Source: an uncultured Dehalococcoidia bacterium | Lineage (GTDB): Bacteria > Chloroflexota > Dehalococcoidia > Lucifugimonadales > Lucifugimonadaceae | Assembly (NCBI GenBank): GCA_958295935.1 | Contig: OY282385.1 | Coordinates: forward strand, 1,488,001 to 1,552,000 | Direction: 5' to 3' | DNA length: 64,000 nucleotides | In this document: positions 31,727-55,566 of the stretch, in pieces | How the letters are laid out: every line of letters begins with the position of its first letter | Numbering within the stretch: position 1 is the stretch's first letter | The notes under the pieces: generated by a model | Seen by the model: only the letters and a program-made list of their open reading frames with translations | What the model was told of the DNA's origin: nothing | The model's database searches: none | Translations under genes and position numbers: made by a program

Positions 31727-34700
31727 GTGAACCTGCCCCGTTACGTTCTCAGAAGAGCGCGAACTGACAGACGGTTGCTGGCGGGCGCAACGGTAGCCAC
31801 CGTTATCGCCGCAGTGGTCATAGCGGCTGCGCCCGTCTATCTGCGCTCCCTCGAAAAGGTCGGAGTCCAGCACCGACTCGCGGTACTGGGGCAGTCGAGA
31901 ACCGCGTTGCACGTAAACACCAGTTGGCTACCCCTTGAACGAGCAGCATACGAAGAATCCGACACACTCATAGACGCCGCACGGGACAACCACGCCGCAC
32001 AGATCGTTACTGGAAAAACCAGGTTCGTCAAATCACGATCATATCTCTGGAACTACGATGGACGGCCCGTAAGAGCAGGAGCGCAAGACTCCAGGAGCCA
32101 CTTCCATCTCATAAGCGGACTTGAGCGGCGCGTTACCTATGTCGAAGGACGGCCCCCAAGCCCAAACGTGGCATTCGAGCGCGGGATCCCTCTCATAGAA
32201 GTCGCGGTCTACGCACCACGCGCGTCTATCCTCGGAGTAGAGGTAGGCGACCTGCTGACCAACCTGGCCGAGGAAGCCAAGACCGGGCAGGTCAGGGCCC
32301 GCATCACCGGCGCTTTCGAGATAACCGACCCTCAGAACGACTACTGGCTAGACTTGGCCGTTCCCATCATCGCACCCGTCGCGAGCGTACAGGACCGCCT
32401 CCCGCCCCTGCCGCTTTTTACTGCCGGCGAATCCATCATCGAAGGTGTAGGCCCCAGCCACGGCGGACTGCCCGCGAGCTACTCGTGGTTCCTATACGTA
32501 GACCATGAAACCCTGGGACGGATGGAGACAGGGCAGATCGTAAGCATGACCGACGCGTTCGAGTCCCAGATCGAAGCAGACGTCGTACGTTCAAGTCTGA
32601 TTACTGCGCTTGACAATTCCTTCATCGACCTCAGCCGCCGACTTTTGTTCGCGCGTATACCCATGTTCCTGCTCGCCGCTCTGTCCATGGCGACGGTCGC
32701 TTACTACCTCCTACTCGTCGGAGGACTGCTCGCAAAGAGAAGATCCGCTGAAACGCTGATGCTGCGAAGCCGAGGACTAAACTACTGGCAAATCGTCTCG
32801 ATCCAGTCCATCGAATCAGCCCTGCTCGTCGGTATACCTGTAGCCATAGCCCCCCTGCTGGCGATGCTCACGGTGTCCCAGATCGGACGACTACCGGTGT
32901 ATCGAAATACGAGCGGCGGTGGAACGCTGCCCGTGGAATTCACCTGGGTATCCTGGCTTTGGGCGCTAGGCGCAGGCATAACCATCTTCATCATCCTCCT
33001 GGCCCCCGTACTTACCGAAGCCAGACGCCGAGTCGTAGAAGGCATACTTACCGGGGAGGCGAGGCCGGATAGCCCCCCCCTGTTCCAACGCTATTTTATA
33101 GACGTGCTGGTACTGGCCCTAGGCGCTCTCGTGTGGTGGGAATTAAGGTCCAGAGGATCGGTTGTGGCCGGAGACCTCGACCAGCGCAGCGCAGACATGA
33201 CCCTACTCTTCTTTCCTGCCATATTCCTCGTCGCCGCAGCCCTCATCTTCATGCGCATATTCCCCGCGGCCGCAAAGGGAGCCGGATGGCTCGCAGGCAG
33301 AACCGCCAGAGCCGGGCTGGCTCTTGGCTTCTGGAGGCTTGGCCGCAGCCCATACTGGTACACGTGGCCCGTCATTTTGATCGTGCTCGCAACTGGCCTC
33401 GGAGTTATGTCCGGCGCAATAGCATCCACCCTCGAACGATCGAACCGGGAGCGCATCTCGTTCGCCACTGCCGCCGACCTGCGCATCACTCCAGGCAACT
33501 CGAACTACCCGGCAAACGCATACAACGTGGCGCTCCTCGAATCACATGATGCCGTCCTGGAGGCAACACCCGTATACCGCACTGACGGCCGGATAGGCAC
33601 CACCGGATCGGGCGCTGCATACGCGCTGGTAGCAGTAGACCCGGAAGAGTTTTCGGCGGTGTCCTGGTTCCGGGAAGACTTCGCAGAGTTGACCCTGCCA
33701 GCGATGCTGGACCGAATCCACGTCGAGATTTCACCACAAACTATTCAACTGCCCACAGGCACGCGAAGCCTGGCGATTTGGGCAAAGGCGACCCCCAAGG
33801 TCGAAAACACCTTCCTATGGATCGCCATGCGAGGCGCCAACGGAGCAATGGACACCGTCACTTTTGGTCAACTCGAGGGCGAATGGACGCGCATGACGGC
33901 GAGTATGGGATCCCTGCCAGAACCCATAGAACTCGTCTCCATACAGGTCTTCGAGCCCGCAGGGCCGGATTCCGGAGTCCCGTTCACCATGCTGCTGGAC
34001 GACTTGGTAGCCATTCAGAGCGGCGGTTCTGAACAGTCGCTGCTCGACTTTGAACTTGAGGAATTCTGGACCGGGCTCCCCACTTCCGAGGGCTTCGACA
34101 CCCACTTCTCCCTGGTCCCGGAAGACGAAGCAGGCCGATCGATCGGCCCTTTCAAAGGAAGCAAAGTTGCCAAGGTGAGCCTGGGCAGAGGCATAAACGC
34201 AGGCATCCGAGGCATCTATCGCTCCACAAGCGAGGGCCCTATCCCCGTGATTGCCTCTAGAGGATTCGACGCACGCACGCAGACGCCTGAAGATGAGCCC
34301 TTCGTCGTCGAGATAAACGGGCAGCTTGCACCAGTGAAAGTAGTGGGCACAGTCGATATGTTCCCAACCATACATCCCCGCACGTTGCCCTATCTGATAG
34401 CCGATATCAACGCTCTGCAAGACTTCCTTTCAATTCGAATACCCGAACCTTTCCAACCCAACGAGGCTCTCGTCTCCGCAGTGCCGGGGCGCGAAGAGGA
34501 AGCCGAAGCGGCCGCAAGGCAAGTGTTCGGTATTGCCAACATCCAGAACCGTAACCGACTGCTGGAAAGATCTTTGATCGACCCTCTGGTCGTGGCTGGC
34601 TGGCGAGGCATGGGGTTCATCACAATAGCAATAGCCCTGGCCGCCGTTGGACTCGGATACCTGACCTACATAACGGCGCACGAGGGCCGAACCCGCAACG

Positions 34701-49595: not shown

Positions 49596-50564
49596 CTACT
49601 GGATTGCCGCCAGCCCGGCGTCATAGTCGCTCTGAGGCAAGGCCACGTAACCCACCTCCGAAGCCAACTCCGCCGCGTTCTCGAGGTAGAACGTGATGAA
49701 CGCCTTCATCTCAGGACGCTCCAGAGATGCCCTGTTCACGTAGATGAACAGAGGGCGGGACAACGGAGAGTAACTGCCGTCGTTGATGCTCGACGAAGAC
49801 GGCGCAACGCAACCCGAACCATTGTCAACCGCGACCAGCTTCAACTTGTCCCTGTTCTCAACGTAGTAGGCGTACCCAAAGTAGCCAAGAGCATTCCGGT
49901 CACCACCTATCCCCTGCACCAAAACGTTGTCGTCCGCACTCTGCGTGTAGTCCGCACGAGACGCATCCTCCTCGCCATTGATAGCGTCCGTGAAGTAGTC
50001 GAAAGTACCCGAATCAGTGTCCGGACCATACAGCCGGATCTCACGGTCCGGCCAGCCAGCACGTATCTCGTTCCAATTGTCAACCGTGCTGCCAGGTTCC
50101 CAAAGCTTCTTCAACTCCTCAGTCGTCATGCACGTAGCAAAATCGTTGTCAGGGTTCACCATCACCGAGAGGCCGTCGAAGGCCACGCTAAGTTGGATGA
50201 ACTCGACACCGTTCTCCGCAGCCAACTCGCGCTCAGAATCCTTGATCGAACGTGAAGCGTTCGAAATTTCGGTCTCCCCCACGACGAAACGCTTGAATCC
50301 ACCACCGGTCCCGGAAATACCCACCGGTATCTGCACCCTCCCGTGAACCTTCCTGAACTCCTCAGCAACAGCCTGGCTGATCGGAAAGACCGTCGAGGAA
50401 CCGTCTATCTCGATCGTCCCAGAAAGATCCGGGACAGACTCAGAAGCAGCTGCCCCCGTGGGATCTGGATCACTGCCGCCTCCGCATGCCAGGACCGCCA
50501 TCCCAAAAATCGCGGCGGCCAGCCATAGCCGCCTGAAAATTCCCGCTCTCATTCGAAAGAACAT
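49596..50564 (-). CDS. pstS: Phosphate-binding lipoprotein (PstS)
   Basis: 322 residues. Lipoprotein signal with lipobox AVLACG, Ser/Pro/Asp linker, then the phosphate-binding fold: [65 protein letters not shown] and [14 protein letters not shown]. High-affinity capture protein of the Pst ABC system. No pstC, pstA, pstB or phoU gene follows within the window; a terminator closes the unit, so it is monocistronic. ATG 50564 is used, with ATG 50552 an alternative. A Pho-box-like array lies 84-127 bases upstream. Confidence 0.93.
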
Positions 50565-50754: not shown

Positions 50755-50769
50755 TGATAAACAGTATCA
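50755..50769 (+). promoter_or_regulatory. Fur/Zur-family box 1
   Basis: TGATAAACAGTATCA, a 7-1-7 inverted repeat close to the TGATAATnATTATCA consensus of Fur-family regulators. Lies 56 bases upstream of the TATAAT. Confidence 0.5.
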
Positions 50770-50825
50770 ATAGCATGCCGCCCAGCGAAATGCTTTCACT
50801 ATGCTGCATCATTACGCATTGGGTG

Positions 50826-50831
50826 TATAAT
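50826..50831 (+). promoter_or_regulatory. -10 element of the metal-binding lipoprotein promoter
   Basis: Perfect TATAAT between the two Fur/Zur-type boxes; transcription would start near 50838. No clear -35 was found 16-18 bases upstream, suggesting activation or an unusual promoter. Confidence 0.5.
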
Positions 50832-50844
50832 ACGAGTATGTTTC

Positions 50845-50859
50845 AGATACACAGTATCA
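50845..50859 (+). promoter_or_regulatory. Fur/Zur-family box 2
   Basis: AGATACACAGTATCA, 13 of 15 bases identical to box 1 and exactly 90 bp downstream of it, just past the predicted transcription start, the position expected of a repressor-binding operator. Confidence 0.5.
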
Positions 50860-50955
50860 ATTGGGGTGGCATACCTCCGCAGCTCGGCCCTCTCCGGACT
50901 GACTCTTGCGGATGTTGCCGAGGCAGCGCTCCAAGCGCTGGAACAGGAACGGAAA

Positions 50956-52071
50956 ATGCTTAAGACAACTCCCGCAAACCGCAGGATCATGGGTTCTCTG
51001 CTTTCGCTGGCCGCCTTGGCTATCCTCGCCGTAGCTTGTGGGGCGGACACAGCTCCAACGCCCACACAGCCGCCGGTGGCTGACAATCCCTCGCCGACCG
51101 TAACCGATACGCCGGCCGGACCTATCGCCGTAGTTACCACCATCTACCCGATCACGTGGCTCGCAGAACAGATCGGGGGTGACCGCGTATCGGTAGAATC
51201 CTTGGTCAAGCCGGGAGTGGATGCCCATGACTTTGAGCCCACCCCCGGTGACCTCCTGACACTCTCCCGGGCGGATGTCTTCATATACAACCACTCATCG
51301 TTCGAAACATGGGCGCTCGACGCGCTGAATAACATCGAAAACAATCCCCCCATCGCGATTCAGGCGGCCGACTTGCCCGAGGATATCGAGATTGAGCACG
51401 GCCACGATGATGAGGAAGAGGATCACGACGAAGCCGGGGAAGAACACGGTGATGAGGAAGAAGAACACGACGAAGCCGGGGAAGAACACGGTGATGAGGA
51501 AGAAGAACACGACGAAGCCGGGGAAGAGCACGGTGAGGAAGCCGTAGACCCGCACGTCTGGCTCGACCCCACACAGGCTGTCAGTATGGTCCGCCGCATT
51601 CAGGAAGGGTTTACAAACGCCGATCCAGCCGGCGCGGCAGTGTACAAAAGCAACGCAGACGCACTTGCAGTGAGGCTAAATGACCTGGATGGCCAGTTCC
51701 AGGACGCGCTCGAGTCCTGCCGCAGCGATCACGTCGTCGTCTCGCACTTGGCATACGGCCACCTCGCCGAGCGGTATGGATTAGAGCAGATCGGGCTGGC
51801 AGGTCTCTCAGCCGAGTTCGAGTCCGGGCCTCGGCGCATAGCGGAAATTGTCGACCGAATGGAAGAGCTTGGCATCAAGTACATACTTGAAGAACCGGTA
51901 TCAGGTTCTGGCCTTAGCGATACTGTCGCGGCAGAAGCCGGCGCACAGACCTTGACACTTCACCCCATGGAGTCATTGACCCCGGATGAGGTCGCAGCCG
52001 GAGAAGACTACTTCTCGATCATGGACAAGAACATCGAAACCCTGAAACTGGCGCTCGAATGCACACCCTAG
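50956..52071 (+). CDS. znuA: ZnuA/TroA-type metal-binding lipoprotein with His/Glu/Asp repeats
   Basis: 371 residues from ATG 50956, preceded by AGGAACGGAA; an in-frame GTG at 50866 would put 30 residues before the signal peptide. Lipobox AVACGA, Pro/Thr linker, then the cluster A-1 metal-binding fold: VVTTIYPITWLAEQIGGDRVSVESLVKPGVDAHDFEPTPGDLLTLSRADVFIYN (first His), VDPHVWLDPTQA (second His), VSHLAYGHLAERYGL (third). A central loop (about 150-195) is an acidic His-rich tandem repeat, the zinc/manganese-capturing loop typical of ZnuA. No permease or ATPase follows. The predicted Zur-type operators upstream support zinc. Confidence 0.9.
   Translation: MLKTTPANRRIMGSLLSLAALAILAVACGADTAPTPTQPPVADNPSPTVTDTPAGPIAVVTTIYPITWLAEQIGGDRVSVESLVKPGVDAHDFEPTPGDLLTLSRADVFIYNHSSFETWALDALNNIENNPPIAIQAADLPEDIEIEHGHDDEEEDHDEAGEEHGDEEEEHDEAGEEHGDEEEEHDEAGEEHGEEAVDPHVWLDPTQAVSMVRRIQEGFTNADPAGAAVYKSNADALAVRLNDLDGQFQDALESCRSDHVVVSHLAYGHLAERYGLEQIGLAGLSAEFESGPRRIAEIVDRMEELGIKYILEEPVSGSGLSDTVAAEAGAQTLTLHPMESLTPDEVAAGEDYFSIMDKNIETLKLALECTP
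51406..51543 (+). repeat. 42-bp tandem repeat in the metal-binding loop of the ZnuA-like gene
   Basis: Two exact 42-bp units (51424-51465 and 51466-51507) followed by a partial third and preceded by a partial one, encoding 14-residue units HDEAGEEHGDEEEE. In frame, so copy number changes alter the loop length without breaking the gene. Confidence 0.9.
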
Positions 52072-53000: not shown

Positions 53001-54449
53001 TCAGGGTAAGGCGGAAATTTCTGGCAACGGAACAGTGTCGCCCGTCCGGCGCTGCCACGCCCTCAGCCGTTCCGTCATGTCCAACACTCTGGCCCTGTGC
53101 GATGGATCCTCGAAAAGGTTGAACTCCTCGTATGGATCCGAGTTCAGATCGTACAACTCGCACTGGTCCCCGATACTCAGGTTGATCTTCCAGCCGTCGC
53201 TGCTGATGAGGCCCCTGTGAGGCGCGTTCTGTATACGATCGACCTCAAGGCCAAGCGGATGGCGAGAGCGGTCGCGGCCGTTCCAGTCCAGTATCGCGTC
53301 ATGGCCGTCCAGCGTATCCACACCCGCCAAAACCCCCGCGCGACTTCGACCCTGAAGATGCCCGGGCAGATCTGCCCCGATCAGGTCCAGCAGCGTGGGC
53401 ACGAGGTCCACGTGGCTCCAGCGGCCCGGAATCATCCGATGCTCCAAGCCCAGCCACGGCACGCGCATCAGCAAGGGCACCTTCACCGACTGCTCGTAGA
53501 AGGCAGACTTCTGGTAGATGTTGTGCTCGCCCAACTGGTCGCCGTGCTCGCTCGTAAACGCCACCACCGTGTTGTCCGCGGCTCCTGACTCATCCAGCGC
53601 CTCGAGTATTCGCCCAACCGCCTTGTCAACTAGCGTGACCAGCCCCCAGTAACGCGCTATCAAACGGCGCCAGCCATCCTCGTTCCAGGCCGCAGCAGGC
53701 AGATCCTCCTCATCGGAGTGCCGTTGAATAAGTCGGTGCATCAGGGCGGCGTTGTGCGGAGGCGGCTTCAGGAAGGTAGGCGGCAGCGGAATCGACGCCG
53801 GATCGTAGAGATCGTCGAACGGCCCGGTATAGGGCGGGTGCGGCTCGAAGATGTTCACGTAAAGAGCCCACGGGCGTTGCCGGTAAGTCAGGATGAACTC
53901 GGCGGCCCGCTCCGCCAGGAACATCGCCTTGGTGTGCTCCTCCTTCACTTGGGCGGCAAGATGGCGGGAGAATACTTTAGCCCCCTCGAAATCGCGGTCC
54001 GGTTCATAGCCGTGCCCCATTAGAAAATGGTAGTGGTCGGAGAAGACCGAAGCGTATTCTCCGGCACGGTAATAATCACGGTACTGATCCTCTATGCTCA
54101 CCCACCGGTCGAAGCCGCGCTGCTTGACCACCTCGTTGCCCAAATGCCACTTGCCGTAGTAACCGGAAACGTAGTCAGCCGGCAGCATCTCGGCAACGAC
54201 CGGCGTCGACTCCGGCAGGGGATAGTTGTTCTTGAGAACGCCGCTGGTGTGGGGCCACAAGCCGGTCATGATCGTGGAGCGGGAGGGAGAGCAGATAGGC
54301 GCGCTTACGTAAGCGTTCTCGAAGACGAAACTCTGGCCGCTAAGCCCATCGAGATTCGGAGTGCGAATCAGCGAGTTGCCGTAGCAGGCCATTGTGTCGG
54401 CCCGTTGCTGGTCGGTGAATATGAAGAGCAGGTTCGGTCTCTCAGGCAT
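53001..54449 (-). CDS. Sulfatase (formylglycine-dependent type I)
   Basis: 482 residues. Alkaline-phosphatase superfamily. [20 protein letters not shown] with metal ligands Asp13 and Gln14, the formylglycine motif CSPSR (Cys53) in [15 protein letters not shown], and a later metal site in [14 protein letters not shown]. The intact C-x-P-x-R means a formylglycine-generating enzyme should activate it. GGAG 7 nt before the ATG. Its start overlaps the 3' end of the J-domain gene by 8 nt. The substrate (sulfated glycan or small ester) is unknown. No signal peptide, so probably cytoplasmic. Confidence 0.9.
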
Positions 54450-55566
54450 GGTTCGTCTCCTTTTGTTGAACTAGCCGCTTGGACGTCTGAATTTGACTTG
54501 AATTCCTCAACAAACACTTCAACGTTCGATGGCCCAATTCCCAACTCGCAGAAGTTGGAGAAGTATAATAATTTCGGCCAATTTGAGGACATCTTTCCGA
54601 AGCCACGTCACGAAAATAATCCGCGCCAGGATACTCTTCATCAGATGATAATTCAATCAATACCAACTCCGTTACCATGAAATCCCAAGAAGAATCACAG
54701 GATACAACATTTACCAAATCAAGACGATTTAGATCAGCATCAGGTGTTTGAAGCTTGAAACAGTCTGCCTTTAGAAGTTCCACAAATCGCGCCTCGCCAA
54801 GAAAAGGACGCTCGCGCACACTGTTCAATTCCGCCGCTTTATTCATGTCATCGATCAGAGATTGTGCAGAACTATTGGGATTACATAAACTAGACCTCAC
54901 AAATATGATAATTACTGCCACTACTACTCCAAAAATAAGCAATTGCAAAAAACAAGTACACGCTGACTTCCCATCTGAAGTATCATTATCATCCCCTTCA
55001 GACTCCTCTTGTGTGGCCTCGCTTTGTGAGGCGCTCTGAATAATCTTCTCAGCACTAAATTTGTTCATCCCCGGATAGGATCTGATCAACTCTTCTATAA
55101 TTTCTTCAAAATCATATCCGGCGGCCATTCGTTCCTTGGCTAGTGTCTCGGGGTCAACGGGTGGTTTATCATCTTCAGACTCTTGCCATCTTTTCTCAGA
55201 ATTACTAGTCTCACTGTGGAGACCACGGTCGTAATCCGCACGCTTCTGAGGGTCGCTCAGAATCTGATATATCGCGTTGATCTGTTTGAACCGTTCTGCA
55301 GCCCCAGAGTTGGTGTTACGATCCGGATGGACCTGTAGAGCCTTCCGCCTGAACGCATTTCTGATATCCTCGGCCGATGCAGTTCGGGATATGCCGAGCA
55401 CCTCATAGTAATCGCGCACAATCATATCGCGGCTGGCAGTTCCTACAATACCCCTGACCTTCAAAATATCAATGCTGGCGCCCGTCAGTTCTTGAATGAC
55501 CCGCTCAGGCTCCGCGCCCACGGCCAGCCTATCTATGGCGTACCGATATATCTCTTTATCCTTCAA
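54442..55566 (-). CDS. J-domain membrane protein with Septum_form-like C-terminal domain
   Basis: 374 residues, TTG start with GGAGAG five bases upstream. A helical N-terminal segment (1-50), a J domain at 52-115 with HPD (LQVHPDRNT), an acidic linker containing [19 protein letters not shown], a Cys-rich membrane helix (about 205-228, [22 protein letters not shown]) and a C-terminal external domain (about 250-365). The pattern DCF...[13 protein letters not shown]...EYPG...F.D.ASERC...[20 protein letters not shown] resembles the actinobacterial Septum_form family (PF13845), from memory. Markedly AT-richer than both neighbours, so probably acquired horizontally. Joins the cytoplasmic Hsp70 system to an external domain. 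Confidence 0.75.

Follow-up and report, generated by a model that had tools for sequence, protein, structure and literature searches.

Features upstream of the znuA gene

The window, i.e. the whole stretch of 64 000 nt (64 kb) analysed here, comes from an uncultured Dehalococcoidia bacterium with a genome of 2.75 Mb in one contig. It contains a gene for a zinc-type ABC substrate-binding lipoprotein, znuA, preceded by two 15-bp near-palindromic boxes with a TATAAT hexamer between them (Table 1).

Table 1. Positions of the features discussed in the text (plain coordinates refer to the window)
Feature	Position	Strand	Basis
Box 1, predicted Zur operator	50755..50769	.	Best match in the window with the relatives-only matrix (22.6 bits)
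Box 2, predicted Zur operator	50845..50859	.	Second-best match in the window with the same matrix (16.5 bits)
Candidate −10 hexamer (TATAAT), located between boxes 1 and 2	50826..50831	+	Inferred promoter
znuA, zinc-type ABC substrate-binding lipoprotein, 371 aa	50956..52071	+	PF01297, E = 7e-77
42-bp tandem repeat (3.2 copies) encoding the ZnuA His/Asp/Glu-rich loop	51403..51536	+	Repeat in sequence
zur, only Fur-family gene of the genome	C1:340414-340878	−	PF01475, 81 bits
Cys-less DUF5679-like genes of relatives, with 1–3 boxes	L058:1545-1730, L185:2092-2274, L186:1889-2071, L060:1531-1716, L004:1215-1397

The preliminary description had called the lipoprotein ZnuA-like, and the domain match and the nearest solved relatives agree with this: the closest PDB structures are those of zinc AdcA (7jj8) and B. 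subtilis YcdH (2o1e). The protein has the features of ZnuA/AdcA lipoproteins, namely the PF01297 fold family, a lipobox (Cys28), a His-rich loop and three conserved histidines (H91, H200 and H264). In the alignment these histidines and a Glu have the AdcA-type arrangement; we take the four residues to be the metal ligands. The curated NCBIfam equivalog cut-offs were missed (181.9 bits versus 700 for AdcA, the best match, and 102 versus 268 for ZnuA). The length of the His/Asp/Glu loop differs between relatives; in the window's protein, unlike in AdcA/ZnuA (YcdH), the loop is made of the tandem repeat listed in Table 1.

The start of znuA was placed at the ATG at 50956; the longest ORF opens at a GTG (50866). 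The 5′ extension of the ORF (50866–50955) was also considered as a remnant of a Cys-less DUF5679 gene (see below) and rejected, as the alignment was no better than those of shuffles. Upstream and divergent, with a start 190 bp from box 1, is a gene for a PstS-family phosphate-binding protein (49596–50564; TIGR02136). On the other side, a gene at 54442–55566, located between sulfatase-like genes, encodes a DnaJ-domain protein with a weak septum-formation-type match at its C-terminus.

Box 1 is TGATAAACAGTATCA and box 2 is AGATACACAGTATCA. Identity at 13 of the 15 positions, a start-to-start distance of 90 bp and a TATAAT flanked by the two boxes were all confirmed. Both boxes are inverted repeats, as had been claimed; TGATA-N5-TATCA describes them better than a perfect 7-1-7 repeat does, box 1 having perfect arms of 5+5 and box 2, whose first base is A, arms of 4+4. 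All six bases of the candidate −10 fit the hexamer, but GCTGCA makes a poor −35, and a promoter scan upstream of znuA scored no sigma-70-type promoter, so the znuA promoter is put forward as a proposal only. A search of the same upstream region against Rfam gave no match.

Excess of the boxes over chance

We scanned the 64-kb window with a matrix built from 37 training sites that came exclusively from the znuA loci of relatives, the window's genome being excluded. The top two places were those of box 1 and box 2. The score of box 1 was never attained in 9.6 Mb of simulated sequence, in which the null rate for the score of box 2 was 0.3 per Mb. With up to one mismatch, TGATA-N5-TATCA was seen four times in the window versus 0.6 expected from window shuffles.

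The third-best matrix match of the window is a perfect TGATAGCCGATATCA at 34395–34409. It lies within a long ORF, presumably FtsX-like, and is probably a chance match.

The zur-znuC-znuB operon

A genome-wide search for the box, suggested earlier as a check, found it again at a distant operon. TGATANNNNNTATCA has three occurrences in the 2.75-Mb genome; of the exact TGATA-N5-TATCA sites, one is box 1, another falls within an ORF and the third lies at the start codon of a Fur-family gene. The only PF01475 gene of the genome adjoins its only ABC-3 permease gene. The gene order on the minus strand is fur (zur), znuC, znuB, and the exact box is located at the start codon of the first of the three. 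The Fur-family gene is tied to the box both by the box at its start and by the operon it forms with znuCB, and a near-palindromic box is found upstream of zinc-uptake genes at znuA as well as at zur-znuC-znuB. The operon is 1.2 Mb away from the window's znuA, which, unlike the AdcA/ZnuA (YcdH) systems, has no adjoining permease or ATPase gene. With TGATA-N5-TATCA present at both loci, the orphan znuA and the distant znuCB have one predicted operator in common.

Other near-matches in the genome, as far as examined, are mostly within genes. TGAKACNNNGTMTCA with one mismatch has nine sites in this genome, three of them the real ones, and the reversed control has nine as well; given this equality we claim no more regulon members in the window's genome.

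Recurrence in relatives

In the related genomes the box is associated with the zur clade and with zinc-transporter genes. Of 60 relatives, 50 gave a match to the ZnuA protein, and 22 of the 29 loci with a readable ORF have a box near the znuA start, often overlapping the ATG. Box 2 of the window departs from the consensus and sits ∼100 bp upstream of the znuA ATG. TGATACNNNGTATCA is present in 17 of the 60 relatives (reversed-pattern control, zero), and in a phylum-wide sample of 201 genomes TGAKACNNNGTMTCA is present in 93, the reversed pattern in 27. Where zur and znuA of relatives form an operon, a further box lies upstream of zur, 475–555 bp from the znuA box; znuCB of three relatives (G004, G015 and G025) also has a box upstream.

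The predicted Zur operator of the lineage is spelled TGA(T/G)AC-N3-GT(A/C)TCA. A second spelling, TGAGAATNATTCTCA, occurs in some relatives at zur/znuA or at the Cys-less DUF5679 genes described below (L229, L230, L231, L232, L234 and L235), which suggests that the spelling of the operator has changed within the group.

Genes of FAD/NAD-dependent oxidoreductases that look homologous to each other are located directly behind a box in two relatives, with the first spelling in G019 (L184:1516-2748) and the second in G044 (L228:1501-2668). This flavoprotein-like oxidoreductase, which presumably resembles CzcO, is a candidate member of the Zur regulon.

The regulator

Proteins of the zur clade have the signature GRATVYRT...CKL..PDG...HHHH, and nearly every locus of this clade among the relatives has a box at the gene start. 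The other Fur-family clade (TPQR...HHHMVC) has a box at the gene start in none of ∼11 loci. Both CxxC pairs of the zur clade (C105, C108, C145 and C148), the structural Cys4 site of the Fur family, are invariant. An extra cysteine, Cys81, is invariant in 10 zur-clade sequences, whereas the other Fur clade lacks it; in the alignment, Fur proteins have a Thr or Val-Thr region at this place. Known Zur sensory sites, of the N2OS type, include one Cys beyond the CxxC pairs (PMC4219657, PMC6103462). Cys81 may correspond to His77 or Cys88, two ligands of EcZur.

Sequence profiles put the regulator nearest to Fur proteins, and the name Zur therefore owes more to the genomic context than to the protein itself. 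The score against the curated enterobacterial Zur model NF008646 was 28.9 bits (cut-off 167) and scores against the Fur models were also far under their cut-offs; as these models are lineage-specific, the name Zur is used here in a functional sense, drawn from context.

Boxes at Cys-less DUF5679-like genes

In relatives, boxes are also located upstream of a gene for a 60-aa protein that resembles DUF5679, with a match at E = 0.002 that does not reach the curated cut-off, and is without most or all of the four cysteines. Such boxes were found in G004, G015, G025 and G030 (twice in the latter), second-spelling boxes in G007 and G027 and a second-spelling site with one mismatch in G051. In some relatives this gene is in an operon with znuA. 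The ∼10 Cys-bearing DUF5679 loci examined have no box at any of them. Still, the rule of a box at the Cys-less gene is not universal, as there are other Cys-less copies that carry no recognisable box. A PDB search with a DUF5679 protein gave no match.

Zur-controlled Cys-less (C−) ribosomal paralogues offer a parallel, since in the relatives too the Cys-less zinc-ribbon copy is boxed and the Cys-bearing copy is not. Unlike them, the protein is DUF5679-like, not a known ribosomal protein, and the Cys-less copy is absent from the window's genome, which has a Cys-bearing DUF5679 copy only (AYCMKCKAKREM...GFCPTCGTKMFKI). On balance, and by a narrow preference, we think that Zur of the lineage may control both zinc uptake and the swap of DUF5679 for its Cys-less copy, much as with the zinc-free ribosomal paralogues. 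On this reading, DUF5679 would serve as an abundant zinc holder, perhaps linked to the ribosome. If the swap reading is true, Zur of the window's organism, with the Cys-bearing copy alone, acts on uptake alone. The boxes at the Cys-less genes are more novel than the Zur operator pair itself.

Interpretation of the paired boxes

The boxes upstream of znuA are very probably docking sites of the zinc-sensing repressor Zur. We strongly favour the explanation, built on the sequence patterns above, that the two boxes are operators of Zur from the distant zur-znuC-znuB operon, a protein that would coordinate znuA with znuCB in response to zinc. Our inferred scheme, which covers binding, the effector (zinc), repression, the place where transcription starts and what each box does, is as follows. 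With ample zinc, zinc-loaded Zur dimers would occupy the operon box and both znuA boxes. Box 2 follows shortly after the candidate −10, at about +8 to +22 relative to the predicted start, and its occupancy would block RNA polymerase. Box 1, ∼70–80 bp upstream of the predicted start, could provide independent added occupancy or cover a second promoter. On a drop in zinc, Zur would leave both loci, so that the lipoprotein and the distant permease and ATPase would be made together. Some features speak against this explanation: the profiles that put the regulator nearest to Fur, its low score with the Zur model, the poor −35, and a box 2 that is off the consensus and well ahead of the ATG, whereas the box of relatives often overlaps that codon.

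The preliminary description had proposed Fur/Zur-type boxes and zinc control. On the sequence side this picture is well supported: boxes without recurrence near other metal genes would have counted against it, and the box does recur, at zur-znuC-znuB and at znuA, zur and znuCB of relatives. Zinc, rather than iron or manganese, we infer from gene content and ligand pattern. It is unlikely that the same Fur-family protein acts at the boxes but senses manganese or iron, with the ABC system importing that metal. Manganese and iron proteins are also found within PF01297, the profiles place the regulator nearest to Fur, and box 1 resembles the Bacillus Fur box, TGATAAT-N-ATTATCA, from which, by our reckoning, it differs at only 2 of the 14 specified positions. 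Unlike the Bacillus Fur box, however, the consensus of the relatives has an inner C...G, and its sites go with zinc-uptake genes and zur. The lipoprotein has zinc AdcA and YcdH as its best solved relatives, a His-rich loop and the AdcA-type set of three histidines and Glu (in the ligand roles presumed above), all of which speak for zinc. So do the invariant Cys81 and the boxes that relatives have upstream of the Cys-less zinc-ribbon paralogue, typical of zinc economy.

A looping repressor had also been suggested, with Zur dimers at both boxes bridging and trapping the promoter in between. We give this idea little credence, even though the candidate −10 has a box on either side and several relatives also have promoters with more than one box. 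At other znuA genes the boxes are 76, 87, 104, 130 and 134 bp apart; G005 has four boxes upstream of znuA (L064:559-829), with distances of 88, 79 and 89 bp, and at the Cys-less DUF5679-like gene the distances are 80–82 bp. The 16 multi-box spacings vary from 75 to 134 bp; their phases are spread over the helical turn, and a Rayleigh test found no significant phasing (p ∼0.09). The window's own pair, at 90 bp or ∼8.6 turns, is near opposite faces of the helix, and one box is enough at many znuA and zur genes. We consider looping less likely than independent action of the paired boxes or cover of a second promoter. Promoters with several sites for a Fur-family regulator are also known from S. 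coelicolor (znuA) and B. subtilis (yciC), and there the double boxes most likely act independently (PMC6103462). The double boxes of Actinobacteria and Bacillales overlap the −35 and the −10, unlike those described here, which are 90 bp apart.

That the boxes belong to another regulator, either the DtxR/MntR-family protein of the genome or an unrelated factor, is very improbable: the genome does have one DtxR-family (PF02742) protein, but the exact TGATA-N5-TATCA list of the genome has no site near its gene (C1:1236536), and the box goes with the zur clade, at whose genes it is a site of autoregulation. A chance resemblance, of which the third high-scoring site of the window is a probable example, is scarcely credible for the znuA boxes given their ranks with the relatives-only matrix, the simulated null and the recurrence at orthologous genes.

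Comparison with known systems and significance

The 7-1-7 operators to which Zur binds in Actinobacteria and Bacillales are, as here, 15-bp near-palindromes at zinc-uptake genes (PMC6103462). The system described here is distinguished from them by the half-site TGA(T/G)AC with its conserved inner C...G, by the 1.2 Mb between znuA and zur-znuCB and by the extra Cys81 of the regulator, conserved in its own clade. In the open-access literature searched we found no study on Zur in Chloroflexota, on zinc control in SAR202 or on DUF5679; RegPrecise has a Chloroflexi collection. The conserved Zur-type operator pair is real and ordinary in kind, and apparently undescribed for the lineage. As the box is common to zur's own operon and to zinc genes of many, mostly uncultured, related Chloroflexota, the switch is of a kind already known, here in a group that has received little study.

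The results provide a concrete spelling of the Zur box and a small regulon for the mostly uncultured Chloroflexota of the SAR202/Dehalococcoidia type. The shared box would account for co-regulation of the orphan znuA with the distant znuCB, and DUF5679, a family of unknown function, becomes a testable zinc-economy protein.
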